Virus record (IMG/VR): IMGVR_UViG_3300025110_000032
Location: 1 to 42,407 of that record
DNA length: 42,407 bases
Direction: 5' to 3' (one strand)
Source: a virus
The position numbers and the translations under genes were made by a program. Below, piece after piece: positions 1,383 through 42,309 of the stretch (positions are counted from its first letter, which is position 1; each line of letters starts with the position of its first letter). The notes beneath the pieces are model-generated. The model saw only the letters and a list, made by a program, of their open reading frames with translations. It was not told the DNA's origin and did not search any database.

Positions 1383-2234
1383 ATGCCTGCTACACGCTTT
1401 GAGATTAATGGCGAACGGCATTATAGAACTGATAAAGCAGATAAAGCATATCCTTCGGTTACAACAATCCTTAGTAAATGCGCCACTGAAAGTAGCAAAA
1501 AAGCTTTAAAGAATTGGATACTTAAGAATCCTGGGGGTAGCGCAGCCGCAGCCAAGCGAGGTTCAGCGGTACACCAAGCCTGCGAGGACTATATTCGAGG
1601 GAAAGAAATAACAATAGAATCAGAATACCAACCATTTTGGAACGGAATTAGCCAACATTTAGATAAATACGATTCTTTTATTTGGAGTGAAATGCCACTG
1701 CGACCAGAGTGGTCTTATTGCACGGGAGAAGATGGAATTTCTAGAGTTTGGTCTCACAAGTATGGGTATTGTGGTTGCCCTGACTTGGTTGGAATTAGGA
1801 ATGGAACTTATATAATTGCTGACTTCAAAACTAGTAATCAACCCTATTCTCGGTATTATCCCAAAGCAAAAGCAGATCGTTCTAGGTTTACTGGTTGGAA
1901 TAAATTCAATAAATGTGCAATGCAATTAGCAGCATATGCACAAGCACTAGATGAAACTCTTGGTATCAATATTGACTGCGCTCAGATTATTGTTTCCACT
2001 CCAGAAATCGATCAAAGTTTTATTCTTACAAGAGAAGAATTAGATCGACATAGAACTAAGTGGTTGCAAAAAATTAGACGCTATCAAGAGATAAAAGAGG
2101 AAGAAGAACAAGCCAAACATATTCTTAAAGAACTAAAACAAGAGTTAGAAGATTCCGGGGATAATCTGCCCAGTAGTGAGGTAAGCACCGAGAAGGCCGA
2201 TAAAACCAATCATTGCCCAGCGACCGTTAGCTAA
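1383..2234 (+). CDS. PD-(D/E)XK exonuclease, Cas4/RecB-like
   Basis: The protein has the layout of phage Cas4/RecB-family nucleases: a PSVTTIL segment near the N-terminus, GSAVHQACE, the motif CPDLVG followed by IIADFKTS (catalytic D...DxK), and the QLAAYAQAL helix (Q-x3-Y motif). It probably degrades double-stranded DNA ends for phage recombination, working with the SSB-like protein upstream. An alternative TTG start lies at 1371; ATG 1383 is preferred because the domain begins right after it. The last 30 or so codons lie antisense to an hli gene (2145-2342), so the C-terminus has been formed by sequence whose sense strand encodes another conserved protein. The stop is therefore probably not ancestral. 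Confidence 0.8.
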   Translation: MPATRFEINGERHYRTDKADKAYPSVTTILSKCATESSKKALKNWILKNPGGSAAAAKRGSAVHQACEDYIRGKEITIESEYQPFWNGISQHLDKYDSFIWSEMPLRPEWSYCTGEDGISRVWSHKYGYCGCPDLVGIRNGTYIIADFKTSNQPYSRYYPKAKADRSRFTGWNKFNKCAMQLAAYAQALDETLGINIDCAQIIVSTPEIDQSFILTREELDRHRTKWLQKIRRYQEIKEEEEQAKHILKELKQELEDSGDNLPSSEVSTEKADKTNHCPATVS

Positions 2235-2342
2235 TTCAGCTTCCTTGATATAACCCTTGTACTCTTCCACTAGTTGTGGCTGAGTTTCTTTGCCAAATAT
2301 ATTTTGCTTGCCGTATTCAGTTGTAATGGAAGAGTCAGTCAT
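2145..2342 (-). CDS. hli: high-light-inducible protein (Hli), 65 aa
   Basis: The C-terminal half carries the single-helix chlorophyll a/b-binding motif: AELANGRWAMIGFIGLLGAY, followed by TTGQIIPGIF, the classic Hli ending. Hli proteins sit in the thylakoid membrane, bind chlorophyll and carotenoid, and protect photosystems from excess light. Cyanophages carry them to keep host photosynthesis running during infection. It is the last of three adjacent hli frames, its ATG overlapping the stop of the middle one (TAATG). Its 3' 90 nt overlap the exonuclease gene on the other strand. Confidence 0.93.
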   Translation of the reverse strand: MTDSSITTEYGKQNIFGKETQPQLVEEYKGYIKEAELANGRWAMIGFIGLLGAYLTTGQIIPGIF

Positions 2343-2864: not shown

Positions 2865-3719
2865 TTACGAAGATATTTGGTTGTGTAATTGTCCAGTTAA
2901 TTTATAGCAAACGGAATTCTCGATTTTGTCTTGCAGTCCGACCAACTCATTAGGCATAGGTGTTTTACTCATTACTCTAAAAGTAGCAACTATGGGGCAT
3001 CTCCCATAAGCAGCGCCAAACTTTTCAACGATCTTTGCCGTTACAGGCATCTCTCCCGTGAGAATATCTTGTACATCATTAAGGTCATCCTGTTTGATAC
3101 CCTTCGCGTAATCTTGATCAGTAAATAATTGCCATACCTCTCTTGTGTTTAAGACCTCGTACTTACGTATAGCTTGAAAATGTTCTGCCAATAAAGAACC
3201 GAATTTCTTGAGTTCTTTCGCTGTAGGAACAGGTGGTGGAGTAACAACCTTCTCTTCTTCTTCTGATTCTTGCTTCTGGATATTCTTCTGACTAGCAGAC
3301 AATGCTGCAAGTATCCGAGGTAGATCTTTTGTTTCGCTTGTGCTCCTAATCCAACTCTCTACATCCTTAATAGTAAGAGTGTTTTTGTACTCACCAGTAT
3401 CGTAATAATCAAAAAGAGCATCAGGTGTTATTCCTAATAATCCAGCTAAGTTTCTTGTAATTCTTGTCCGTACATCAAAAGGATTAACTTCTCCTCTTAA
3501 ATATTTAGTAACAGTACCAATCGATACTCCCATTCTATCTCCAAGTTTTCTTTGTGAGATATCATGCATAACCATTGCTTGGTTAAGAGACTCAATAAAT
3601 CTTTGAACCTCTTTTGAGTGGTCTGGATTTATAAAGTTCGCATATTTATTTTTTGCTTTAGATATGCGTTCTTCTTGTTTATCCCCTTGGGGTGATTTTT
3701 TTACTTTTTTAGATTGCAT
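2865..3719 (-). CDS. XRE/Cro-CI family transcriptional repressor
   Basis: A helix-turn-helix of the XRE type spans roughly residues 45-95 (ISQRKLGDRMGVSIGTVTKY), preceded by a very basic N-terminus. A linker with an acidic/proline part (EEEEKVVTPPPVP) leads to a C-terminal region that may contain a second, weaker HTH-like unit (DDLNDVQDILTGEMPVTAKI). No Ser-Lys LexA-type protease motif is seen, so RecA-stimulated cleavage is not supported. It is divergent to the primase gene across a 405-nt spacer with repeated TGTAC motifs, so it probably controls early or lysogeny genes. With the integrase it argues for a temperate life style. Confidence 0.75.
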   Translation of the reverse strand: MQSKKVKKSPQGDKQEERISKAKNKYANFINPDHSKEVQRFIESLNQAMVMHDISQRKLGDRMGVSIGTVTKYLRGEVNPFDVRTRITRNLAGLLGITPDALFDYYDTGEYKNTLTIKDVESWIRSTSETKDLPRILAALSASQKNIQKQESEEEEKVVTPPPVPTAKELKKFGSLLAEHFQAIRKYEVLNTREVWQLFTDQDYAKGIKQDDLNDVQDILTGEMPVTAKIVEKFGAAYGRCPIVATFRVMSKTPMPNELVGLQDKIENSVCYKLTGQLHNQISS

Positions 3720-4124: not shown

Positions 4125-6524
4125 TTGTTGTACCTTTTTGACAACCAAGGCACACTAAGTATCCGTAGAGCATTGTTATCCGTGAGCGAAATCAGCTTCA
4201 GTATTCATCCTTCAATAAAAAATAAGCCGCAACATTGGGAAAGTAAATTTGCTTTTAACTGGCAAAGACAAACAGGAACATTAGAAGACTTACGTAAACA
4301 AGTAAGCAACGGATCTGCTTTTGTTGCAGCAGCAATGAAAGGGGATCATCGAACTAGTGCCGCATTTGAAGGAAGTTCTCTAGCTGTTGTTGACGTTGAT
4401 GACGGTCTAACTGTTGAGGGTTTTTTAGCTAAACCATTAGCAGAGAAAGCAGCTTGGCTCTATACAACAACCAGTCATGATCCTTCTAATAGCAAGGAAA
4501 GGTTTCGTGTCATTTTTCAACTTCCAGAATTTATAGAAGATCCCGACTTATATAAGGAGATAGTTACTTTACTTGTTGCTCAAACTGGAGCAGACAAGCA
4601 ATGCACTGATTGCTGTCGTACTTTCTATGGCAACGATCAAGCAACTGAACCTCTATTCAATCAAGATGCTGTCCTAGATAGCAGCATTATCGATGAAGCA
4701 AGGAAAGCATTAGTCATCAGACGTAATACATACGACCGCCGTAAAGAAGATATTGATGATCATTCAATTCAACTTGCTATCTACTGCTTAGAAAATGTCA
4801 TTGAACCAACTAATGACGGTGAACGTGATAAGTTCCTGCGAATCACAACTGCTGCTCGAGCTGGTGGTGATGAAGTATTTCCATATTGGTCTGACTGGGC
4901 AAGTCGAGGACACCATGGAAGAAAAAGAGGACAGACTAGTGAAAAGTTTTTCCGTGGATTCAGAGGTGATCATTTAGGAGCAATCTTTACTGCTGCTACC
5001 GAAAGTGATTCCGAATGGAGAAAAAACTTACCGCCTGAACTTAAAAGTGATGGCAGTAATTATTTGACCGGTGTCTACGGCAAATCTTTTGCAGGCTATG
5101 AACACTCTGCTTTCTTAGGACTAGATGAAGATGACGACTTCACTCCTGCCGATACTGCTACTCAAGGTTTATTTAGCGAACCTGCTTGGAGTCGGACAGC
5201 AGTTATCGAGACAGAGGAATCTAGTGAAGGAATGGATTCATTCTTCGAGAGTCAAGAAGAAGATCCAGATTCTTTCGATCCTCCAGATGCAGGTCGAGGT
5301 CGTCGAGGAGAAAACCAAGTTGATCGCATAAGAGAAGTAATCACTAGAAACTTCAATGGCTTAAGACTTAATGTCATGAACCAGCAGTTGGAGTTCGGAC
5401 CAAAAGGAAGTCCACGTCCAATCCATGACCCGACGTTGATGTATCTCAATGTCAGCAGGACAGAAGGAACAGTCTTCCCGAAAACATTAGTCTTTGATAT
5501 TGCTACTGAGATTGCTTACGAAAATAGATACCACCCAGTTAAGAAGTACCTAACTGCTTGTGCTTCTTCCACTGATCCTTGTCCTTACTTTGACCGCCTA
5601 GCAACTGAGATATTGGGAGTCTCTCCCGATCCAGTACAAAATCCACTCATGCCTTGTGGTACTCGATTAGCCGATCTCATTCTTAAACGATTCCTTATTG
5701 GTGCTGTTAGTCGAGTGATGTCTGAAGGCTGCCGTCATGACTGGATGCCAATTCTTATTGGTAGTCAGAACTGCGGTAAATCAACTTTCTTCCAATACTT
5801 AACTCCACCAAATCCTATGGACGGAACTTATCCATGGGTAACAACAATGCAGCAGTCGATCGAGTATCTAAGTTCTAGACCTCATGCTCTTCATGCTGGC
5901 TTTATTGTTGTCATGGATGAATTTGAAAGATATACCAAACGCAAATTCTCTGAGGAATTAAAGAACCTTATCTCTGTCAGTGTCGATAGATCTGCTCGTA
6001 AATATGAAAACGAAAAGTCTTATCCCAGAGCTTTCGTATTAGCTGGTGCTACTAATAGTCCTGACTTCCTCTCTGATCCAACAGGTAATAGAAGATTCCT
6101 TCCTATTCAGGTGCTTGGTAAGGTTGCTTCTAAAGAAGACCCCAATATTAAGATCATTGATTTAGATCGTCTCAAAAAAGATCGTGATGCTATTTGGCAT
6201 GCTGCTTACAAGCATTACCTAGATAAACCAGAGAATGTATTTACCAGTCACGAGTTAAGTCACATCTCTGAGTACACCGATTCATTTACTAAGGACAGTC
6301 CTGTTGAACTTGCTGTATCAAATGTACTAGCTAGGGAAACCAGTGGTTGGCATCAGGGCGCACCTTACGTAACTCTTGCTGACATGTTTAAACATTTAGA
6401 CGTTCCTGTTACTCAGCATGGTCAGATGACTCAACAAATTACCGATTGCATGAAAAGAATGAACTGCAAACCTAAAAGAATTAAGGAGAATGGCTCTCCA
6501 AAACGAGTTTGGATGAAGTCTTAG
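4125..6524 (+). CDS. primase-helicase: AEP prim-pol domain fused to VapE/VirE-type ATPase
   Basis: The N-terminal third looks like an archaeo-eukaryotic primase: VVDVDDG (DxD, around residues 88-93), TTTSHDP (SxH-type motif) and a later Asp/Cys region (GADKQCTDCCRTF). The C-terminal third is the virulence-associated-E ATPase: Walker A GSQNCGKST (about residues 545-553), Walker B FIVVMDEFE, and the sensor-like AGATNSPDFLSDPTGNRRF. Such proteins replicate temperate phages and satellites by priming and unwinding at their own origin. The TTG start is chosen from the GAAGG site 9 nt upstream; no ATG is nearby. The acidic linker between domains (about residues 335-390) is low-complexity. A hairpin terminator follows. 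Confidence 0.88.
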   Translation: MLYLFDNQGTLSIRRALLSVSEISFSIHPSIKNKPQHWESKFAFNWQRQTGTLEDLRKQVSNGSAFVAAAMKGDHRTSAAFEGSSLAVVDVDDGLTVEGFLAKPLAEKAAWLYTTTSHDPSNSKERFRVIFQLPEFIEDPDLYKEIVTLLVAQTGADKQCTDCCRTFYGNDQATEPLFNQDAVLDSSIIDEARKALVIRRNTYDRRKEDIDDHSIQLAIYCLENVIEPTNDGERDKFLRITTAARAGGDEVFPYWSDWASRGHHGRKRGQTSEKFFRGFRGDHLGAIFTAATESDSEWRKNLPPELKSDGSNYLTGVYGKSFAGYEHSAFLGLDEDDDFTPADTATQGLFSEPAWSRTAVIETEESSEGMDSFFESQEEDPDSFDPPDAGRGRRGENQVDRIREVITRNFNGLRLNVMNQQLEFGPKGSPRPIHDPTLMYLNVSRTEGTVFPKTLVFDIATEIAYENRYHPVKKYLTACASSTDPCPYFDRLATEILGVSPDPVQNPLMPCGTRLADLILKRFLIGAVSRVMSEGCRHDWMPILIGSQNCGKSTFFQYLTPPNPMDGTYPWVTTMQQSIEYLSSRPHALHAGFIVVMDEFERYTKRKFSEELKNLISVSVDRSARKYENEKSYPRAFVLAGATNSPDFLSDPTGNRRFLPIQVLGKVASKEDPNIKIIDLDRLKKDRDAIWHAAYKHYLDKPENVFTSHELSHISEYTDSFTKDSPVELAVSNVLARETSGWHQGAPYVTLADMFKHLDVPVTQHGQMTQQITDCMKRMNCKPKRIKENGSPKRVWMKS

Positions 6525-6886: not shown

Positions 6887-7192
6887 ATGAATGGTTTGGC
6901 TTCTCATCCTATGCATCTTTACGATCGACCTCTTGTTGAGGAGATAGTTTCTAAAAGCCTCAAGGATTTAACCAAGCAGAATATCGTTGACCTAGCCAGA
7001 TTGCTCAATCGCTATAACCCAACGAACGATAATCTCAAAGATATCATCATTGCTTATTTGCACGAGAACCATAAAACACCAGAGCAGCTCCACATTAAAT
7101 CAAGGGAAATCTGGCAAAGCGGCTGGCGACCTACCTCGCTTGATTCTGACGAGGTTGGATCTGGTGCTGATGTAGAAGCCGGAGCTGGCTAA
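6887..7192 (+). CDS. hypothetical protein, 101 aa
   Basis: ATG start at 6887 immediately after the recurring 20-bp element; a second in-frame ATG at 6911 (before HLYDRP) is an alternative start. The first 80 residues look helical and globular (LVEEIVSKSLKDLTKQNIVD, LARLLNRYNP). The C-terminus is a Gly/Ala/Asp-rich tail (VGSGADVEAGAG). No catalytic motif is visible and the family is not recognised. It is convergent with, and overlaps by 4 nt, a small coiled-coil gene. Confidence 0.6.
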   Translation: MNGLASHPMHLYDRPLVEEIVSKSLKDLTKQNIVDLARLLNRYNPTNDNLKDIIIAYLHENHKTPEQLHIKSREIWQSGWRPTSLDSDEVGSGADVEAGAG

Positions 7193-10065: not shown

Positions 10066-10716
10066 ATGTCAGCAATCAAGATAGACCCCGAAACCGAGAA
10101 GAAGTGGGCTAAAGAAAGAACCAAAACGTGGCTTCAAGAAACTTATAAAAACGAGCTTGGTCGCGATCTAGGTGATGAAGGAGAAAAATATTGGACAGCA
10201 GATATCCATGATCGAGGTCAAACAGAAGATCAAGTACTAGCAAATATCAGACGCAGTGATGAATACAAGGCATATCAAAGAGGCAAAGGAGAAGGAGATG
10301 CAACTCTTCCTGTAATTCCAGGTCCAATTATTGATGATCCAACAAAGCCAGTTCCAAAGCCAAAACCTCAAAAACCAAAATACGATTACACCCCTGACCC
10401 AGACAGGAAATACAACAAGTATTGGGATTCAATAGATGCAGCAGCAGACACTGGGAATCAGATGACTGATGATTATTATCGTCGCTTCCTGCCCCAGATG
10501 CGTAATGAAGTGCTTCTTGGAATTAATGAAATAGGCGCGGCTGATCGTTATCACGGAGATAGGTACGAGGGAAAACCTCCTACTTATTCAGATCCAAAGG
10601 AATTATTCGACTACTACAAAAGCAAAACAGGTGACTCCGACGACTCCAGCAACGATACAGTTAAAGAATTAGAAAAAAGAATTAAAGAGTTAGAGGATAA
10701 GTACACCATCAAGTAA
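10066..10716 (+). CDS. DUF4214-domain protein
   Basis: Residues about 22-70 form a DUF4214 unit (YKNELGRDLGDEGEKYWTAD ... LANIRRSDEY), a small helical domain related to phycobilisome-linker repeats. The match to a repeat in the 401-aa protein at 36129-37334 is close (ELGDEGRDYW, LANIRRSDEY). A proline/lysine-rich linker follows, then a charged helical part ending in a coiled coil (KELEKRIKELEDKY). The role is unknown. Because its homologue is in the virion operon, it may be a structural or assembly protein. Confidence 0.75.
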   Translation: MSAIKIDPETEKKWAKERTKTWLQETYKNELGRDLGDEGEKYWTADIHDRGQTEDQVLANIRRSDEYKAYQRGKGEGDATLPVIPGPIIDDPTKPVPKPKPQKPKYDYTPDPDRKYNKYWDSIDAAADTGNQMTDDYYRRFLPQMRNEVLLGINEIGAADRYHGDRYEGKPPTYSDPKELFDYYKSKTGDSDDSSNDTVKELEKRIKELEDKYTIK

Positions 10717-10755
10717 TAATCCTTGTTAAGGTTTATTAAGTATCTTGCGGAATGT

Positions 10756-10941
10756 ATGACTAAGCAGACAGTTTCGAATAAAGAATTTGTCACCGAATCA
10801 TATCGTAGTTTGCTGAATCGAGAGCCAGATTCTGAAGGATTGCAGTACTGGATTGATGATATAGAAAAGCGTGGGCAATCCCGAGACGATGTTGTTGCCA
10901 ATATCAAGCTCAGCGATGAATATCAAGCGATGGATTCTTAA
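10756..10941 (+). CDS. single DUF4214 domain protein, 61 aa
   Basis: The whole protein is one DUF4214 unit: FVTESYRSLLNREPDSEGLQ, then YW, GQSRDDVVANIKLSDEY. The ATG at 10756 is taken as start; an upstream in-frame TTG at 10723 adds 11 residues of poor coding character. It lies 40 nt after the other DUF4214 gene, so the pair may have arisen by duplication or by gene splitting. Confidence 0.7.
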   Translation: MTKQTVSNKEFVTESYRSLLNREPDSEGLQYWIDDIEKRGQSRDDVVANIKLSDEYQAMDS

Positions 10942-14191: not shown

Positions 14192-14581
14192 GTGAAGACT
14201 CGTTTTGATCTTGTGCCTTGGGATGCTGTTGCAGACATCGCTGATGTCCTCCAGTATGGCGCTGCAAAGTATGGGGCGCATAATTGGTGCAGAGGTGCCC
14301 ACTGGAGCAGATACTTCTCGGCTCTATGCAGACATGTATTCGCATGGTGGAGAGGAGAAGACAGGGATAGAGAAACAGGGAAAAGCCACCTTGCCCACGC
14401 TGGATGCTGCTTGCTCTTTCTAATGGAATACCAGCGAAATAGTTGGGGCACAGATGATCGTTTTACTGGTCCAGATGATCAGATATTCAACAAAGATGAC
14501 GGCCTCTCGAAAGATACATTTAGCATGGAATTATACGAACAAATTAGCAAAGCTGATCCCATCGATTTAGGTTTGGAGTAA
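14192..14581 (+). CDS. dATP/dGTP diphosphohydrolase domain protein (DUF5664-like)
   Basis: The family pattern is clear: TRFDLVPWDAVADIADVLQY, GAAKYGAHNW, HWSRYFSALCRHVFAWWRGE, and HLAHAGCCLLFLMEY. Members hydrolyse dATP/dGTP to the monophosphate plus pyrophosphate in phages that edit the dNTP pool, including some with modified purines. GTG is the start. It is on the plus strand, divergent from the minus-strand gene at 14134. No PurZ-type gene is visible in this window, so purine replacement is not shown. A small Cys-rich gene follows after 2 nt. Confidence 0.8.
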   Translation: MKTRFDLVPWDAVADIADVLQYGAAKYGAHNWCRGAHWSRYFSALCRHVFAWWRGEDRDRETGKSHLAHAGCCLLFLMEYQRNSWGTDDRFTGPDDQIFNKDDGLSKDTFSMELYEQISKADPIDLGLE

Positions 14582-15545: not shown

Positions 15546-15878
15546 CTATTCGTCGTTTCCTAGGACAATCGCATCCATGTCTAGCTCAAAGTTGGTCGAA
15601 TCAATAATGTCCTGCAACGACTCTTCCTCTTCTTCACAGAAGGCTAAATCAGTATCATTATCTTCCATTATTCTTGACGGCAAGGAAGCTGTTCCTTCTG
15701 TAAATTTAAAAGCAAAACCAGCGTCCTTGCTAGCCATAAGAAAGACTTGCTTCTGTGTGAATCTCCCCTCCCAACAATCTAGTAATGCTGCGATCAAGTC
15801 TTCCCTCGAGTAGTCCCTGATCTCGATTGCAATCTTTTGAAGCAGGTATGCTTGCTCCATCGTTAGATCTGGGTTCAT
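15546..15878 (-). CDS. nblA: NblA-family phycobilisome degradation protein with C-terminal extension
   Basis: Residues 4-45 match NblA: LTMEQAYLLQK, then IRDYSREDLIAALL, close to the LxVEQxFxLQK...VRDISREDL pattern of cyanobacterial NblA. NblA adapts the Clp protease to phycobilisomes so that the antenna is broken down. The start at ATG 15876-15878 is chosen because AGGAG lies 9 nt upstream; a TTG at 15911 gives a longer version. At 110 aa it is nearly twice the usual NblA size, with an acidic C-terminal extension (AFCEEEEESLQDIID) of unknown purpose. Its first half overlaps an HNH gene in another frame. Phage NblA is known in some cyanophages. Confidence 0.75.
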   Translation of the reverse strand: MNPDLTMEQAYLLQKIAIEIRDYSREDLIAALLDCWEGRFTQKQVFLMASKDAGFAFKFTEGTASLPSRIMEDNDTDLAFCEEEEESLQDIIDSTNFELDMDAIVLGNDE

Positions 15879-16263
15879 AATGAATCGCTCCTGATAAACA
15901 CCATAGATCAAATAGATCGTTATTCAGAGGTGTAACCCATTCCTTAATTCTGTCTGCTTTTTCCGAGCAATAAAAAGTTTGCTCTTTATACCAGACCAAC
16001 CAATCACGTTGAGAACCTTTTGCTGAATTACATGGTAGACATGCTGGCACAAGATTAGTGCGTAGACTGCTACCACCAAAAGCTTTCGGTTTTAAATGAT
16101 CAATCGTTAAGTGAATTTTAGCCCCTTTACTATCTACCCCGTTTCCGCAATAAGCACAACAGCCCCATTCGTCTTTGATTGACTGTCTAAAACGTCTCAA
16201 AGCAGCACCTTTGGAGATCTCTACCAACCCGAAACGGTAGCTCTCCCAACGATCTGGTATCAA
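15730..16263 (-). CDS. HNH endonuclease
   Basis: Typical HNH domain: CAYC (Cys 36, 39), LTIDHLKPKAFGG (Asp 55, His 56), RTNLVPACLPCNSAKG (Asn 70, Cys 75 and 78, Asn 79). These make the zinc-bound beta-beta-alpha-metal nuclease. The domain is complete by about residue 115. The last 50 codons run through the nblA gene in a different frame, so the C-terminus is probably non-essential or recent. It may be a free-standing homing nuclease that landed before nblA. Confidence 0.8.
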   Translation of the reverse strand: MIPDRWESYRFGLVEISKGAALRRFRQSIKDEWGCCAYCGNGVDSKGAKIHLTIDHLKPKAFGGSSLRTNLVPACLPCNSAKGSQRDWLVWYKEQTFYCSEKADRIKEWVTPLNNDLFDLWCLSGAIHYEPRSNDGASIPASKDCNRDQGLLEGRLDRSITRLLGGEIHTEASLSYG

Positions 16264-21054: not shown

Positions 21055-22392
21055 TTAGGCTGCATACGGGTGTTGATGGTTTCTGATCATCGCCTTTTTC
21101 TCATCTTCTTTATCTAGCCAAAGCAGATATTCTTGCTTGTGAACAGCTAAGCCATGCCCCATCGCTTCAGCGCATTCTTCGATTGTCTTCAATCTCTTAA
21201 AGGCTGGATCAGTATGCATAAAGACTGCCCATGTATGTCGAAGGTCGTATGGTCGAACCTCTATTTTCTTCCTTGACCTTTTGACTGGAGATTTAACTAG
21301 TAGTGGAGGCATTGAGCGTTCTGCTCTCCCTTTCTTTCCGTAAGAGGTAGGTCCAGTTTTTCCAAATCTTCCTTTCAGTGTTCCGTATCTAATGTTTTGA
21401 TGTTTTATTCCTAAAGTGTTGCGAGTTAAATATTCCCCTAGCTCGTCGTTGTTATCCCCTATCCCATCAAAATAAATATCCTCATCATCAATCGAATAAG
21501 TTCGAGTGAGTGGATTTGCAATGCTTTTGATACGTGGCTTTCTTTTCCAGCGTAAATAAAACTGATGCTCATCAAAATTTTTAAATAATCCATATCTCTC
21601 ATCCCACTCAGCAAATGCAGGCCAGACTATTCGATCTACGTTTGACTTAGTAAGTCGCCTCGGTACCTCAATAAAAAGATTTCCCAGCTTTTTGATGTAC
21701 CACAGTTCATGATTTCTAAGGCCGTAACACATCATCATTGCAATAGCCCAGCACTGCCATGGAAACTCTTTGTAGTGCTTGTCTAAATATTTTTCTGCTT
21801 CCTCTCTCGAAACGATTCCTCGAACTTGTCTCAAATCTTGCTTATCTAAATTCCTAGTCAATTCTTTACGTTGTTCTGCATGAAGATCTCGAATTGCTCG
21901 ATACTGTTCATCTGTAAACCAAGCAGGATTTCCATAGAACTTTTGAAGTTGTCTAATAAATTCCAATCGGGTCTGGAAAGGTTTTGTTCCACATTGTTTT
22001 TCTTTTAACCATTCTTTAATTGCTTTATGAGATTGTTTGATTTGTTTTTCTTTTAATTGTTTTAATAAAGAAAAATAATTTTTATTCGTAGATCCTTTAT
22101 TTCTCTTTTGTAAAAATCCTTTAATTGCTGCTTCGTCTTTTTGCCAAATATTAAGTTCTTCTTCTTGAATATCATCATCACTCCAAACACCTTGATCAAT
22201 AATTTTGATTTTGTTGCAAACCCATTCACAATCTTGATCGCTATCTATCCTTCTTGGTTTGAGCGAAATTCTTGTGTTTCGATTTCTATTATCTCTCACA
22301 TAAATATATTTACTGTCTCCACGAGTAAGCATGCTCCAGCGGTAATTGCATTCCTCTAAAAAAGCAATGTACTTTTTGATGGGTAAATTCAT
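21055..22392 (-). CDS. int: tyrosine-type site-specific integrase
   Basis: 445 aa with the catalytic set of tyrosine recombinases: Arg 226 in CYGLRNHEL, then YDLRHTW (Arg 385, with Tyr at the usual first His), MGHG (His 413) and the nucleophile in EYL (Tyr 422). The N-terminal part contains the arm-binding and core-binding domains (long basic helices). It sits right next to the att site with its start 7 nt from the first arm-type repeat. It integrates the phage into a host tRNA-Met gene and removes it with help from an excisionase. Confidence 0.92.
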   Translation of the reverse strand: MNLPIKKYIAFLEECNYRWSMLTRGDSKYIYVRDNRNRNTRISLKPRRIDSDQDCEWVCNKIKIIDQGVWSDDDIQEEELNIWQKDEAAIKGFLQKRNKGSTNKNYFSLLKQLKEKQIKQSHKAIKEWLKEKQCGTKPFQTRLEFIRQLQKFYGNPAWFTDEQYRAIRDLHAEQRKELTRNLDKQDLRQVRGIVSREEAEKYLDKHYKEFPWQCWAIAMMMCYGLRNHELWYIKKLGNLFIEVPRRLTKSNVDRIVWPAFAEWDERYGLFKNFDEHQFYLRWKRKPRIKSIANPLTRTYSIDDEDIYFDGIGDNNDELGEYLTRNTLGIKHQNIRYGTLKGRFGKTGPTSYGKKGRAERSMPPLLVKSPVKRSRKKIEVRPYDLRHTWAVFMHTDPAFKRLKTIEECAEAMGHGLAVHKQEYLLWLDKEDEKKAMIRNHQHPYAA

Positions 22393-32351: not shown

Positions 32352-33323
32352 TCAGCTCAACCCCGCGCCTGAGATATAACAGCTATTGGCATCTGTGAAT
32401 ATGATAGTTGCCATTCCTTTTCCAGCTAAGGTTCTATTCGCATTTGAACCATCAGCCGTATAGTACATATTTGTCGGTTTTATAATTGTTAAGTCAGAAG
32501 TCATATGATTGATAAATGTCACCATCTGTCCAGCAGAAAAGACACCGCCAGGCACCGTTATGTTGCCACCACTACCTTGCATGAGAACATATTTTCCTGC
32601 ATCAGAAGCAACAAGAGTATAAGCAGAACTTACAGTGGTGTTAGTTAATGATCTTAAATCGCCTTTGCTGTCTGATACCGTTCCAGTTACCGTAACGCCA
32701 GTCGCTGTGGTTTCTATTTTTTTCGTACCATTATGGTATATCTCTACGGCTCCGTCTTCTATAAGTTTTAGGAATGTCTCAGTATTGTCTTTTCTAAAAA
32801 CTACATTACCTACATAATTATCTAGATAAGTACTAGCTCCGTCATGAAAAACTCGGAAATCTTCTCCAGTCCCAAGTAATAACTTCTTATTATCTCCTAA
32901 ATGTATATGCTCACTAGATGTCCACGAATCAGTAGCGTTAACCCAAAGGAATGTCTTGTCTGTAGCGCCCTTTAATTTTATACCTCCCTGATCGGCAGTC
33001 GTATCACTGGGACTTGAAACCTTGCCAATCTCAATCTGCTTGTCCTCGACATCAAGTGTCTGAGTGTTGATTATTGTCTGAGTTCCGTTTACGGTGAGGT
33101 TACCGCTAAGAGTAAGATTAACTCCTGTTATCGTTCCAGTAAATGCGGGGCTCGCAGGTGCATACGTAAGTGCTACTAATGATGTACCTTCTTTGATATA
33201 TAGCTTGTCTTGATCCTCGGCATAGCTTATCTCCCCATCTTGTAGGTCAGAGACACTGCCATTCAAATTTGAATAAGAACCTCTTGCTATTCTTACTGGT
33301 GTTCTAGTGCTGGGGGTTGGCAT
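32352..33323 (-). CDS. tail fibre protein, 323 aa, shared N-terminal module
   Basis: Begins with TRTPVRIARGSYSNLNGSVS and ISYAEDQDKLYIKEG, then the shared module (ASPAFTGTITGVNLTLSGNL; IINTQTLDVEDKQIEIG; SSEHIHLGDNKKLLLGTGED). The C-terminus is beta-rich (GGVFSAGQMVTFINHMTSDL). It abuts the LamG-like gene by 1 nt. Probably a short fibre or a base for the longer ones. Confidence 0.7.
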   Translation of the reverse strand: MPTPSTRTPVRIARGSYSNLNGSVSDLQDGEISYAEDQDKLYIKEGTSLVALTYAPASPAFTGTITGVNLTLSGNLTVNGTQTIINTQTLDVEDKQIEIGKVSSPSDTTADQGGIKLKGATDKTFLWVNATDSWTSSEHIHLGDNKKLLLGTGEDFRVFHDGASTYLDNYVGNVVFRKDNTETFLKLIEDGAVEIYHNGTKKIETTATGVTVTGTVSDSKGDLRSLTNTTVSSAYTLVASDAGKYVLMQGSGGNITVPGGVFSAGQMVTFINHMTSDLTIIKPTNMYYTADGSNANRTLAGKGMATIIFTDANSCYISGAGLS

Positions 33324-34710: not shown

Positions 34711-36129
34711 CTAAGGAATGATTATTGGAGCGGTGTTTGACCCTTCTTTTACTACTTCAATCATCGGGTAACTTACACCTCCAATTGTTACCGTGCTTTC
34801 GAATTGTTGTGTCGTTGAGTTGAAAATTCTGATCTCTTGCGTACCTCTTTTACACCACCAATCATTTTGTCTACACCAGCTCGCTTCTGGTTCTTCGTGG
34901 TCGTTCCAGAGCATTGGCCTGATGTCAGTCCTGATATTATTTCTTACGTCTGTACCAGGGAACAGTTCTAAACCTACGACTTCTGCTAATGCTAAAGCGT
35001 ATCTATCGTAGTTAACTCGATGTCTTGCATTGTATTCGTCATACACTTCATCACTAAATTCCCTTTCCATGCTTGAGTCTGTCAACAATCCACTAATGTT
35101 GTCACCGTAATATTGAGTCGGGAAATCGTTTGGTTCATACCACGGAATACCGCATTCCCATCTCATCGCATGCATGTGTTTACATTCGCGACGTTGGTCA
35201 ATTCGACTTTGCAAAGAACGCCACTGCCTGTAATAGCCAGCACCTTGTCTTTCCCAAGCAGCTCGAACAGTTCTACTGGCGTTTGGTAATGGGAACATAT
35301 CTTGATCTACTTCACCTTTTGGAAATTCAAGGTTTGCCAATGCACCACCTAGATGATCAGGACAGCAGCAAAACATCTTCGTTGAAGAGCAAAGATGACG
35401 AGTTCCATCCGTCTTCCAGATATTTGGAGCAGATGGATTGTAATCAAGTTTTTTCCAATAAATTGTATTGTTGTACTTAACTCGTCCATACGCTTTTGAG
35501 AGATCAAAAACCAAAGTCAGTGATCCTGAATTCGCAGCAATTAAAGTTAAAGCAACACTTCCTTCTGGTTTAGTGACAACGTCATCTGGATAATTAGGTC
35601 CAGATGCTGTGTCTTCAAATTGATCACCGATAAAAATAGAAAAAATACCAACTTGAGATGCAGTTAATACTCCGCTGACGTTATAAGTCAACGTATGATT
35701 TGCAGGATCAGGATCACTTGTATTCGTTGATATTTGCGACGATGCCAAAGCACTGGGAAGGATGATACTTCCTCTCGTTCTTTGTCCTACGTACCAAGTT
35801 CTCTCAGGACTAGTCTCACTTGGGAACATTGTGACAATGTCCTTCGATATGCCGCTAACAGCACCTGTTGTGAATCGACTATTACTGTATATCGATAAAT
35901 CATCCCAGCTTCTACCCGTACCAAAGTAATAGGCTTGACCTAGCTGCCATCTCTTGTAATCACTTTGACGATTATACGACTCAAGAATTGTAGGGAACTG
36001 AGCTGTTCCATAAAGACCTAATCCTTTACCTTTACTCGGGTATAAACCTTTTGCTTTGTTTAATCCAATTCCTTTTGTAACAGGTTGAAGCCCGAAACCT
36101 GTTCCTAGGTTCCCGAGACCTTTACCCAT
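34711..36129 (-). CDS. virion structural protein, 472 aa
   Basis: The N-terminus has Gly/Lys repeats (GKGLGNLGTGFG; GIGLNKAKGLYPSKGKG). The core is aromatic (SDYKRWQLGQAYYFGTGRSW) and the second half has several Cys (MFCCCPDHLGG; RRECKHMHAMRWECG; SWCRQNDWWCKRG) that may form disulfides or a metal site. The ATG overlaps the last codon of the DUF4214 gene (position 36129). No named family, but position and size fit a tail component. Confidence 0.6.
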   Translation of the reverse strand: MGKGLGNLGTGFGLQPVTKGIGLNKAKGLYPSKGKGLGLYGTAQFPTILESYNRQSDYKRWQLGQAYYFGTGRSWDDLSIYSNSRFTTGAVSGISKDIVTMFPSETSPERTWYVGQRTRGSIILPSALASSQISTNTSDPDPANHTLTYNVSGVLTASQVGIFSIFIGDQFEDTASGPNYPDDVVTKPEGSVALTLIAANSGSLTLVFDLSKAYGRVKYNNTIYWKKLDYNPSAPNIWKTDGTRHLCSSTKMFCCCPDHLGGALANLEFPKGEVDQDMFPLPNASRTVRAAWERQGAGYYRQWRSLQSRIDQRRECKHMHAMRWECGIPWYEPNDFPTQYYGDNISGLLTDSSMEREFSDEVYDEYNARHRVNYDRYALALAEVVGLELFPGTDVRNNIRTDIRPMLWNDHEEPEASWCRQNDWWCKRGTQEIRIFNSTTQQFESTVTIGGVSYPMIEVVKEGSNTAPIIIP

Positions 36130-37334
36130 TATCTAAAACTACTTGATGGATCGAAGTAAGTACTACCTCGCTCTTCTCCAGATCTTAATCCTGCTTTTGC
36201 ATATGGTCTGTCCTCTCTCACTCTTGGACCAGCAGTGATTCTGCTTCTTTTCCTTGAGCGATCAGAGGTTGCAGTTGCTCCTGAAGTTAGATCACCTCTT
36301 CTTCTCCCTGGGAAGCTTCCGACACTGAACCCCCTTGTCAACTGTGATGTCTCGTCAGCACGTTGAGCATTGATATAAGAATCTGCTTCTCTTCTTGCGT
36401 CGTCGTAATCAGATTGTAGTTGTTCATATTTTTCTTTATTCTCATTGAGTGCATCGTCGTACTCAATTTGAGTACCGCCGTCATCTGAATCGTCTGGATC
36501 TGGATCAGGATCTGGACCTGGGCCTGGACCTGGACCTGGGCCTGGACCTGGACCTGGGATTCCTACGCAATTCCCTGCGGCATTTTTCTGTGTACCAACA
36601 GGGCACAGATCGTCATCATTGTCAGAGCCAGTATTGCAATTAGAACCATCCCAACTACCGCCAGACTGAGCACATGCATACTCATCGCTTCGTCTGATAT
36701 TTGCCAGTACATCCTCCCTAGTCTGACCTCCTTTGATATCTTTTAACCAATAATCTCTACCCTCGTCTCCTAGTTCACGATAAAGCTCATCTTGATAAAC
36801 ATCTCGTAACCATTTCTCGTTACTGAGCTTGATATTTGATTCAACTTCTTCACGAGTGGCACCTCTTCCTAAGTCTCCTAGCCAATATTCTCGACCTTCA
36901 TCTCCAAGATCACGATTTAAAACTGTTTGATAAGTACTCTCTAACCACTCCTCATCATTTTGACCAGCACCTTCTGTGTCATTAATATTTTGATATTCAT
37001 TACTACGTCTGAAATTGTCTACAACTTCTTGCTGCGTTTGTGCCCCACTATTGATTTGTTCAGCCCAGTAATTAGCTCCTGCGGTGTCCGGCTCTCGATC
37101 TAATTCAATCTCGTATGTATCTTCAATAAATTGCCGGGTTTCTTCTTCCTTGTCTTCTTTGATTTGTTTTGCCTCGTCAGAAGCATCAAACAATTCTGCA
37201 ACTCGATCTACTGACGTTTTCCCAGAATCTATTTCTGCTTGCCAATAAGCCTTACCTGCCGCGTCAGGTGCTCTACCAAATTTCTCTTGGTAAAGCTGAT
37301 CTAAATATGCGCCTGTATCAGCAAGTGATGCCAT
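36129..37334 (-). CDS. virion protein with four DUF4214 repeats, 401 aa
   Basis: Four DUF4214 units lie in the first 220 residues, e.g. LYQEKFGRAPDAAGKAYWQA, YEIELDREPDTAGANYWAEQ, YQTVLNRDLGDEGREYWLGD and YQDELYRELGDEGRDYWLKD. Then come a Cys part (CPVGTQKNAAGNC), a long Gly-Pro repeat (about residues 260-280), a helical part and an Arg/Ser-rich end. DUF4214 occurs in phycobilisome-linker-like and surface proteins and may mediate protein assembly. The repeated domain links it with the proteins at 10066 and 10756. Confidence 0.75.
   Translation of the reverse strand: MASLADTGAYLDQLYQEKFGRAPDAAGKAYWQAEIDSGKTSVDRVAELFDASDEAKQIKEDKEEETRQFIEDTYEIELDREPDTAGANYWAEQINSGAQTQQEVVDNFRRSNEYQNINDTEGAGQNDEEWLESTYQTVLNRDLGDEGREYWLGDLGRGATREEVESNIKLSNEKWLRDVYQDELYRELGDEGRDYWLKDIKGGQTREDVLANIRRSDEYACAQSGGSWDGSNCNTGSDNDDDLCPVGTQKNAAGNCVGIPGPGPGPGPGPGPGPDPDPDPDDSDDGGTQIEYDDALNENKEKYEQLQSDYDDARREADSYINAQRADETSQLTRGFSVGSFPGRRRGDLTSGATATSDRSRKRSRITAGPRVREDRPYAKAGLRSGEERGSTYFDPSSSFR
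36494..36558 (-). repeat. short tandem repeat coding for Gly-Pro and Asp-Pro runs
   Basis: Units of six bases (GGTCCA/GGCCCA on the coding strand) repeat about ten times, giving GPGPGP then DPDPDP. This kind of tract is prone to length change by slippage, which would vary the linker length. Confidence 0.7.
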
Positions 37335-40918: not shown

Positions 40919-42309
40919 TCAATATACGAATGAGTAAGCAACGGTTATGAAGTCCTTATTAAGAATTTCAAAACCAGCAAAGAGACTCCAAATCATAATG
41001 ATGAATCTTGAAAAATCATCATTGTTATTAAGAAGAATCTGTGCGTTGTTACCACCAATACCTACACCAACTGCCTGTGGTCCGAAGAACAACATTGGAG
41101 CAATTGTATAGTTAGCAGCACCAGCAGCGGCAACAGTTACTGTCGCGTTGATGGTTTTCTCAGGTAGGTTGGTTGATTCGAACCATCTTACGCCCTCGAA
41201 CAAAAATCCCGTCGGCATGACAGGCTGTCCGGCAACGAAGCCAGCTTGTCCATAAGCTGGACCCATACCTTGGAAGAAGTTCGCATTAGGAGCCTCGGAT
41301 GGGTTCATGGGGTTAACCATGCCATTACCGGCATACCTTGCGATCTCTCTGAATGCGTCGTTCTGGCGAAGATGCATCATTGCTGTTGGATCAGCAATAC
41401 ATCTGTAGTAGCCATCGCTGAACGTAGGTACGTTCCGCTTACGCATATCCTTGACGACCTGAAGCAGGTCAGTCTTTACGTCGAACTTAGCTGAAACGCC
41501 TGCAGCGTATGTGAAAACAGGGTTACCTGCTGCTTTTGCAGCTCCACCAGGGAAGTAATAGCCACCCTGACTTGAAGATGAAAGACCGTTAGCCTCTGCT
41601 TTAAATAGTTCGTCTGCAAATACTCTATCTCTCCAACGTCTGTAGTCATCTAGAAGGGTAAGACTACCTATGCTCTGATGAAAAACGTTGAGATTACCAG
41701 TGTCTAATAAAAGACGCTGTGCTGTTAAGAGAGTCTCACGTGCAACCTTGAATGTTGAAGGAGTAGTTGGAGCTGCTGGATCAGCAGGACCGGTGTACTC
41801 TTTTAGGTTGACGAGGACTTTGTCCTTAACAATATTTCTACTTGAAGCCGTGCCAAGAGTCTGATCAGCAGTACGCTCTCTGGAATCCTTATTACCAGGA
41901 TTACCCCAGAAGCGATATCTGTCTAACTGAACAGTTTGACCAGGTTGTTTCGAACAAAAGTTGACGATGTAGCTCTTTATCTACATCCACAAGATTAAGG
42001 ACTCTTGTGATCGGACTATATCTTCACCCTTTAGCAGGGGTTGGGCGCTCGTGGACGAATTACCGAGTTTCCTCTCGTCGTCTAGTCTCTGAACCTTCCA
42101 GATTGTCGTCTGGCTTGGCTGCTGATTAACCTTCTTTTCAGATCCGGTCTTCCAGCAATTCACCCAATTTTTCAAACAACTTACGTTGTATGGACTCCAT
42201 TGAAGTCGTGAACAACCACAGGCTCTACAGCCATCTCGATTATATAACCGGGATGCGGGCGGTAGAGTTCGGCCCCGAGTAGTTTTGGAAAATCATTATC
42301 AATCCACAT
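40919..42309 (-). CDS. major capsid protein, N4gp56-like, split by a group I intron
   Basis: Exon 1 (42203-42309) starts at ATG 42307-42309 with GGAG 11 nt upstream and encodes MWIDNDFPKLLGAELYRPHP and ends with HDF. Exon 2 (40919-41954) continues SKQPGQTVQLDRYRFWGNPG. Joined length is 1143 nt, 380 aa. The C-terminal part (KTDLLQVVKDMRKRNVPTFS, then DGYYRCIADPTAMMHL) follows the N4gp56-type capsid pattern. A standard caller would report only the last 175 aa from ATG 41446. In frame but upstream of exon 1 is a stop, so the start is firm unless another intron lies there. Highly abundant head shell subunit. Confidence 0.8.
41955..42202 (-). ncRNA. group I self-splicing intron in the capsid gene, about 248 nt
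   Basis: On the minus strand the core elements appear in order: P4 5' strand AATTGCTGGAA, P4 3' strand with AATCAGCAGCCAAG, P7 5' strand GGTTCAGAGACTAGAC, P8 region, and P7 3' strand AAGATATAGTCC. P9 (CACAAGA/TCTTGTG) and P9.1 (ATGTAG/CTACAT) hairpins follow. P1 forms between exon end GACTT and intron GAGTC, with the expected U-G pair at the 5' splice site. The intron ends in G at 41955. The splice restores the capsid frame. No homing endonuclease lies inside. Confidence 0.88.

Follow-up and report, generated by a model that had tools for sequence, protein, structure and literature searches.

The analysed stretch of DNA (the window; 42,407 nucleotides, positions 1 to 42,407 of the IMG/VR virus record IMGVR_UViG_3300025110_000032) contains a gene for an NblA-like protein with an acidic C-terminal extension, which belongs to a conserved family of phage proteins and overlaps an HNH endonuclease gene. 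On balance, we lean towards reading the protein as a diverged, extended phage NblA, i.e., a proteolysis adaptor acting on the host Clp protease, with the phycobilisome as its probable substrate. Confidence in this function is moderate only, since the substrate end of NblA is unrecognisable here and is replaced by an invariant-rich stretch and an acidic tail. The locus includes the following features:

15546–15878, minus strand: nblA-like gene encoding 110 aa, with the ATG at 15878 and the stop codon at 15546–15548, identified by its translation, homologues and codon-position pattern
15714–15878, minus strand: predicted NblA-like helix-loop-helix part (residues 1–55), with Pfam, NCBIfam, PDB and hhalign matches and a mean pLDDT of 84 in the model
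15549–15713, minus strand: acidic C-terminal extension (residues 56–110), of low confidence in the model, with its length and charge kept in the family
15561–15593, minus strand: C-terminal motif NFELDMDAIVL, with LDM and IV invariant in a 19-sequence alignment
15888–15892, minus strand: Shine-Dalgarno-like AGGAG, 9 nt 5' of the ATG
15730–16263, minus strand: HNH endonuclease gene, open frame from TTG (putative start), matching Pfam HNH (E 9.5e-10) and PHROG 2214 (E 1.3e-20)

The encoded protein begins MNPDLTMEQAYLLQKIAIEIRDYSREDLIAALLDCWEGRF... and has a net charge of −3 over residues 1–55 and −15 over residues 56–110. The coordinates given in a preliminary description of this DNA (15546–15878) are correct, and the gene lies there on the minus strand; the plus strand at these positions is not open and contains many stops. 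Homologues are full length down to ~43% identity, and a purine-rich counterpart of AGGAG was found in most of them. Changes at the third codon position of the nblA-like frame accumulate from the ATG on, and upstream of the ATG this pattern is found in the HNH frame instead. Because the full-length homologues, the third-position pattern and the AGGAG site are all present, this is not a chance frame, and there is good support for both the gene and its start. The nblA-like gene is real.

Homologues of the 110-aa protein with 99–43% identity were found in IMG/VR, and 29 unique core sequences of the family were gathered, mostly from S-EIV1-related phages. The family spans phages of 40–64% G+C. Its proteins are 107–116 aa long and have an acidic second half (tail net charge of −14 to −17, computed on a set of 14 sequences) and the C-terminal motif LDM(D/E)xIV. 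Residues E8, Q9, L13, L28, L32, K43, F46, A53, G54 and F57 are invariant in all 29 unique sequences; in the N-terminal LTxEQ signature, T6 is kept in 28 of the 29, with E8 and Q9 in all. The NblA likeness, the double length and the acidic C-terminus had been recognised in the preliminary description and stand; the minus strand, the HNH overlap, the lost likeness at the substrate end of NblA and the large family had all been overlooked. A scan of genome contigs for relatives in cyanobacterial chromosomes, whose reach is limited to close relatives, gave only one more family member, on a contig of a marine MAG; this contig carries the label Flavobacteriales and resembles a mis-binned cyanophage contig. 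Note that the MAG MED638, named Flavobacteriales, contains cyanophage-looking contigs with two nblA-like genes, the first belonging to the window family and the second to the cyanopodovirus type. A close search of the window protein against annotated phage records gave no match, nor did a search of the S. elongatus NblA against plasmids.

The window protein matched the Pfam NblA family (PF04485) with an E-value of 0.033 (15.1 bits; cut-off 25 bits) and the NCBIfam NblA family (NF045916) with an E-value of 0.052 (13.7 bits; cut-off 100), in both cases below the cut-off. When all of Pfam was searched, PF04485 was matched by 16 of the 19 homologues (best E 2.7e-5), and no family member reached the cut-off of 25 bits, the best score being 24.9 bits. 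A phage-only profile, in which no NblA was included, was compared with 177,635 PDB sequences and ranked 3cs5 first (E 0.0079) and 1ojh second (E 0.12). The hhalign comparison of the family with ten reference NblAs of cyanobacteria and phages gave a probability of 92–94% and a score of 40–41, while the best of 300 column shuffles scored 21. An HMM built from the ten reference NblAs matched the family at 29 of its 33 loci, with a best E-value of 3.2e-7. The curated cut-offs for the NblA family are not reached; profile homology beyond chance is present. A profile match to NblA therefore exists, and the NblA pattern noted earlier in the N-terminal part is weak for the single protein and firm for the family, as indicated by the 16 of 19 Pfam matches, the PDB ranking and hhalign. 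Judging from these comparisons, we conclude that the family is homologous to NblA, most strongly in its N-terminal half; at the level of sequence, the NblA match of the window protein is genuine yet partial.

The partial character of the match is clear from its extent. Residues 4–46 of the window protein match residues 9–51 of 3cs5 without gaps, and the Pfam match spans profile positions 1 to ~32–37 of 50; therefore, the ClpC-side half appears to be kept and the phycobilisome-binding substrate side is not recognisable. The substrate-side stretch is replaced by the invariant-rich QK.F......AG..F, followed by the acidic tail. L51 and K53 of the Anabaena NblA are presumably phycobilisome-binding positions, with mutation data for L51. 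By ungapped extension into a region where the alignment is uncertain, L51 corresponds to A49 here (mostly A/S/T in the family, L in 3 of 29) and K53 corresponds to K51 (K/R in 22 of 29).

Modeling of the first 59 residues as a monomer predicted a helix at 7–20, a loop and a helix at 25–52, with a pLDDT of ~84. The layout of NblA has been published as helix-loop-helix (PMC7966870), and the predicted N-terminal part of the window protein agrees with it. The pLDDT of the C-terminal half is mostly below 55, and for this reason no fold is claimed for it. Searches with Foldseek and VIA-align, using both the full model and residues 1–59, returned only low-scoring unrelated chains and no NblA. Small two-helix folds score poorly with these tools, so this absence was not counted against the NblA identity.

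A comparison with known NblAs revealed both likenesses and differences. The cyanobacterial proteins (PF04485; 3cs5 of S. elongatus and 1ojh of Anabaena) share the N-terminal signature LTxEQ...F/Y..L and the predicted helix-loop-helix with the window protein, but the latter is 110 aa long versus ~60, carries the acidic LDM(D/E)xIV extension and has a diverged substrate-binding end. The NblAs of the marine and estuarine cyanopodoviruses S-RIP2, S-TIP37 and MedDCM-OCT-S28-C3, from the group treated by Nadel 2019, and of the reservoir isolate S-SRP01 are likewise phage-borne, 79–83 aa long with tails, and gave hhalign probabilities of 85–90% with the window family. However, they have a proline-rich beginning, adjoin an exonuclease gene and are without the acidic LDM tail or an HNH partner. 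The NblAs of the freshwater cyanophages Ma-LMM01 and PaV-LD, which are phage copies of the host adaptor and belong to the ten-NblA reference set, differ in their near-standard length and in scoring above the Pfam cut-off (52 and 45.4 bits, respectively). The published nblA of S-SCSM1 (QFG06501, 8452–8616) showed no Pfam NblA match and an hhalign probability of less than 1% with the reference NblA set, and its NblA assignment merits a second look. This protein was considered as a bridge between the window family and NblA and was left out, the hhalign probability being below 1% with either set.

The idea of a phage nblA is not new: activity has already been shown for the NblA of a marine cyanophage, and many marine cyanophages are reported to carry nblA (Nadel 2019, as described in PMC9602691). 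The same description lists nblA in freshwater cyanophages, 14 cyanopodoviruses and S-TIM5, and describes phycobilin loss when a marine viral nblA was expressed in S. elongatus (PMC9602691). What appears to be new, in the searchable literature, is the extended NblA family, its S-EIV1-related lineage and the HNH coupling. The earlier assertion that marine picocyanobacterial hosts lack their own NblA is not supported as written; the absence of nblA has been published for Prochlorococcus (PMC7439483).

A sister protein is encoded by the cultured phage S-EIV1 (KJ410740.1, 73902–74222), whose annotated host is a Synechococcus. The protein AHV82245 (106 aa), annotated as hypothetical, is NblA-like with an acidic tail and has at least 30 relatives in IMG/VR. 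Together with these relatives, it gave hhalign probabilities of 93% with NblA, on an alignment of 56 columns, and 94% with the window family, with shuffled controls scoring 22 or less. The A6 profile matches S-EIV1-type proteins in 5 of 8 records (E 1e-4 to 6e-3). AHV82245 shares with the window family the NblA-like first half, the acidic tail and a phage lineage defined by the major head protein, but it aligns with NblA over ~56 columns, and its tail ends in a D/E run and not in LDM(D/E)xIV. The gene before it encodes a lysozyme and not an HNH nuclease, and no HNH neighbour is recorded; thus, the wider family can do without the HNH link. For the S-EIV1 group, a genome survey listed hli and ptoX, and not nblA, and in the same survey this genus-level group made up ~3.3% of the recruited marine cyanophage content (PMC5332604).

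In the window family itself, the pairing with the HNH gene is almost constant. The last 149 nt of the HNH gene (15730–15878) overlap the nblA-like gene in a different frame. A search with the HNH protein gave 36 loci; all 33 with a full-length relative have an nblA-like gene at the same overlapping position (~150 nt), and the remaining three are short generic HNH matches. Among the relatives read, which reach down to ~45% identity, the HNH frame is open throughout the overlap. Because the nblA-like frame carries the constraint there, the HNH tail looks mostly passive in the overlap. To our knowledge, this pairing has no parallel among known NblAs. Translational coupling may account for it, as may a mobile HNH cassette or a joint function of the two proteins, and its near constancy hints at another role for the nblA-like protein.

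The genomic context of the locus is that of a cyanophage with photosynthesis-related genes:

2145–2342, minus strand: hli gene 1 (65 aa), PHROG 178, E 4e-23
2345–2461 (stop codon excluded), minus strand: hli gene 2 (39 aa), PHROG 178, E 7.9e-10
2465–2578 (stop codon excluded), minus strand: hli gene 3 (38 aa), PHROG 178, E 3.1e-19
2865–3719, minus strand: phage repressor-like transcription regulator, PHROG 8 (E 4.2e-9) and PHROG 3 (E 1.3e-7)
21055–22392, minus strand: tyrosine-recombinase-type integrase, tblastn E 3e-7 to the annotated phage integrase of cyanophage P-SS2
40919–41446, minus strand: major head protein (part) of the S-EIV1 type, PHROG 1357, E 1.1e-15, 63% identical to S-EIV1

The matches to PHROG 178 confirm the three hli genes proposed earlier. 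The S-EIV1-type major head protein occurs in 12 of the 16 IMG/VR records with the HNH/nblA-like gene pair. The integrase had no Pfam or PHROG match, and a P-SS2-like integrase was found in only 3 of these 16 records, which may be fragments; it was accordingly not taken as characteristic of the family as a whole. Another marine cyanophage with an integrase is reported to have an NblA as well and a split DNA polymerase, whereas the window contains a VapE-like primase and the S-EIV1-type head protein. The description of the phage as temperate finds support in the integrase and the repressor-like gene of the window; with an integrase in only 3 of 16 related records, the term fits a subset. An integrase alone is no proof of lysogeny (PMC8776855).

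Several other observations were made in the window. Its early half (1–21821) is 84–89% identical in DNA, over most of its length, to positions 33312–55620 of a 56-kb relative, and the structural half from ~23 kb on has no DNA match to that relative, which places a mosaic junction near the integrase. A DUF3288 protein (6887–7192; Pfam E 2.2e-7) is encoded in the early region and is ~95% identical in the 56-kb relative. The region 14192–14581 encodes a dATP/dGTP diphosphohydrolase-like domain (PF18909, E 9.6e-31), and the VapE-like primase (4125–6524) is similar to the primase-polymerase of cyanophage S-2L; a modified-base genome, suggested by these two, is only a thought. Proteins encoded on opposite strands at 10066–10941 and 36129–37334 share a repeated short module, L.R.....G..YW, and DNA similarity was observed between the copies of this module in relatives.

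Under the favoured reading, a phage-made helix-loop-helix adaptor would send a host protein to the Clp protease. In NblA, a motif close to the N-terminus is reported to bind ClpC, and one close to the C-terminus to bind phycobiliproteins (PMC4103541). The conserved N-terminal half (LTxEQ...SREEL) would fold as NblA and dock on the host ClpC, a step that we infer from this conservation. The substrate side would consist of the remodelled end of helix 2 (RQKQxFLxxSxxAGFxF) and the acidic tail ending in LDM(D/E)xIV, and the substrate would most likely still be host phycobilisome proteins. Their degradation would remove the antenna, release amino acids and reduce photodamage to the benefit of the phage, while the hli proteins would protect the photosystems. 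Translation of the nblA-like protein would begin from a Shine-Dalgarno site of its own, located within the last part of the HNH gene, and we therefore propose that the two genes are expressed together. The adaptor reading draws on the conserved, putatively ClpC-binding N-terminal part, on the NblA-aligned sister protein of the Synechococcus phage S-EIV1 and, by analogy, on active phage NblAs, including a marine one (PMC9602691). Against the antenna reading, the host could be a Prochlorococcus, a group without phycobilisomes.

The missing likeness at the substrate end and the HNH companion also suit other explanations. The protein might be a repurposed ClpC adaptor, whose NblA-derived N-terminal half acts on ClpC and whose acidic tail picks another substrate without bleaching; we consider this the main alternative, possible but rather unlikely. 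Strong conservation in the ClpC-side half combined with a wholly new C-terminal module would fit it, as would the unrecognisable state of the published phycobilisome-binding C-terminal end (PMC4103541) and the overlapping HNH companion at 33 of 36 loci in phages of such different G+C content. Candidate substrates would be the HNH nuclease encoded alongside, the repressor of the phage or a host protein that acts in defence or regulation. However, another substrate is conjecture, the S-EIV1 sister spans the full NblA length with no recorded HNH neighbour, and other phage NblAs have diverged at the substrate end too, one of them being active. If true, the phage protein, co-translated with the overlapping HNH nuclease, would lead the host Clp protease to a target other than phycobilisomes, and the virus would have turned the host antenna-disposal adaptor into a general tool of targeted proteolysis.

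The tight overlapping pairing, the strongly acidic tail and a translation start that falls within the HNH gene in all members read could also point to a protein that serves mainly the HNH nuclease, as its inhibitor, antidote or specificity factor and with the acidic tail as a DNA mimic; the NblA likeness would then be fold ancestry only. We judge this improbable: in the T4-like cyanophages S-SRM01 and ACG-2014f, similar HNH genes are not directly followed by any annotated small acidic gene, the S-EIV1-type relatives have no annotated HNH neighbour, and the NblA N-terminal signature, unneeded for such a role, is kept. We consider it very improbable that short amphipathic helices resemble NblA by chance and that the protein is an unrelated phage regulator, for which a weak AcrIIA4-like or Nif11-like match would be equally meaningful. 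The weak single-protein E-values, the Foldseek and VIA-align results for either model and the weak AcrIIA4 matches in some members (best E 9.4e-4) are in line with such a chance likeness; but NblA ranked first PDB-wide and Pfam-wide for most of the family, shuffled controls were much weaker and the phage has cyanobacterial photosynthesis genes. An AcrIIA4-like identity was set aside, as these matches cover only ~30 residues in a few members and in no case hold up as a stretch of their own.

Few ways are known in which a virus dismantles the light harvesting of its host; phage NblA is among them and is now extended to the S-EIV1-related lineage. With its ClpC-side half conserved and its substrate side new, the extended form makes it possible to test directly which part of NblA selects the target. 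The cultured S-EIV1 and the prophage of S. elongatus UTEX 3055, which is most similar to S-EIV1 (PMC9239245), could make this testable. Thus, the viruses of this family probably steer the protein-destruction machinery of their hosts, with antenna breakdown as the likely role suggested by the sequence of the nblA-like protein.
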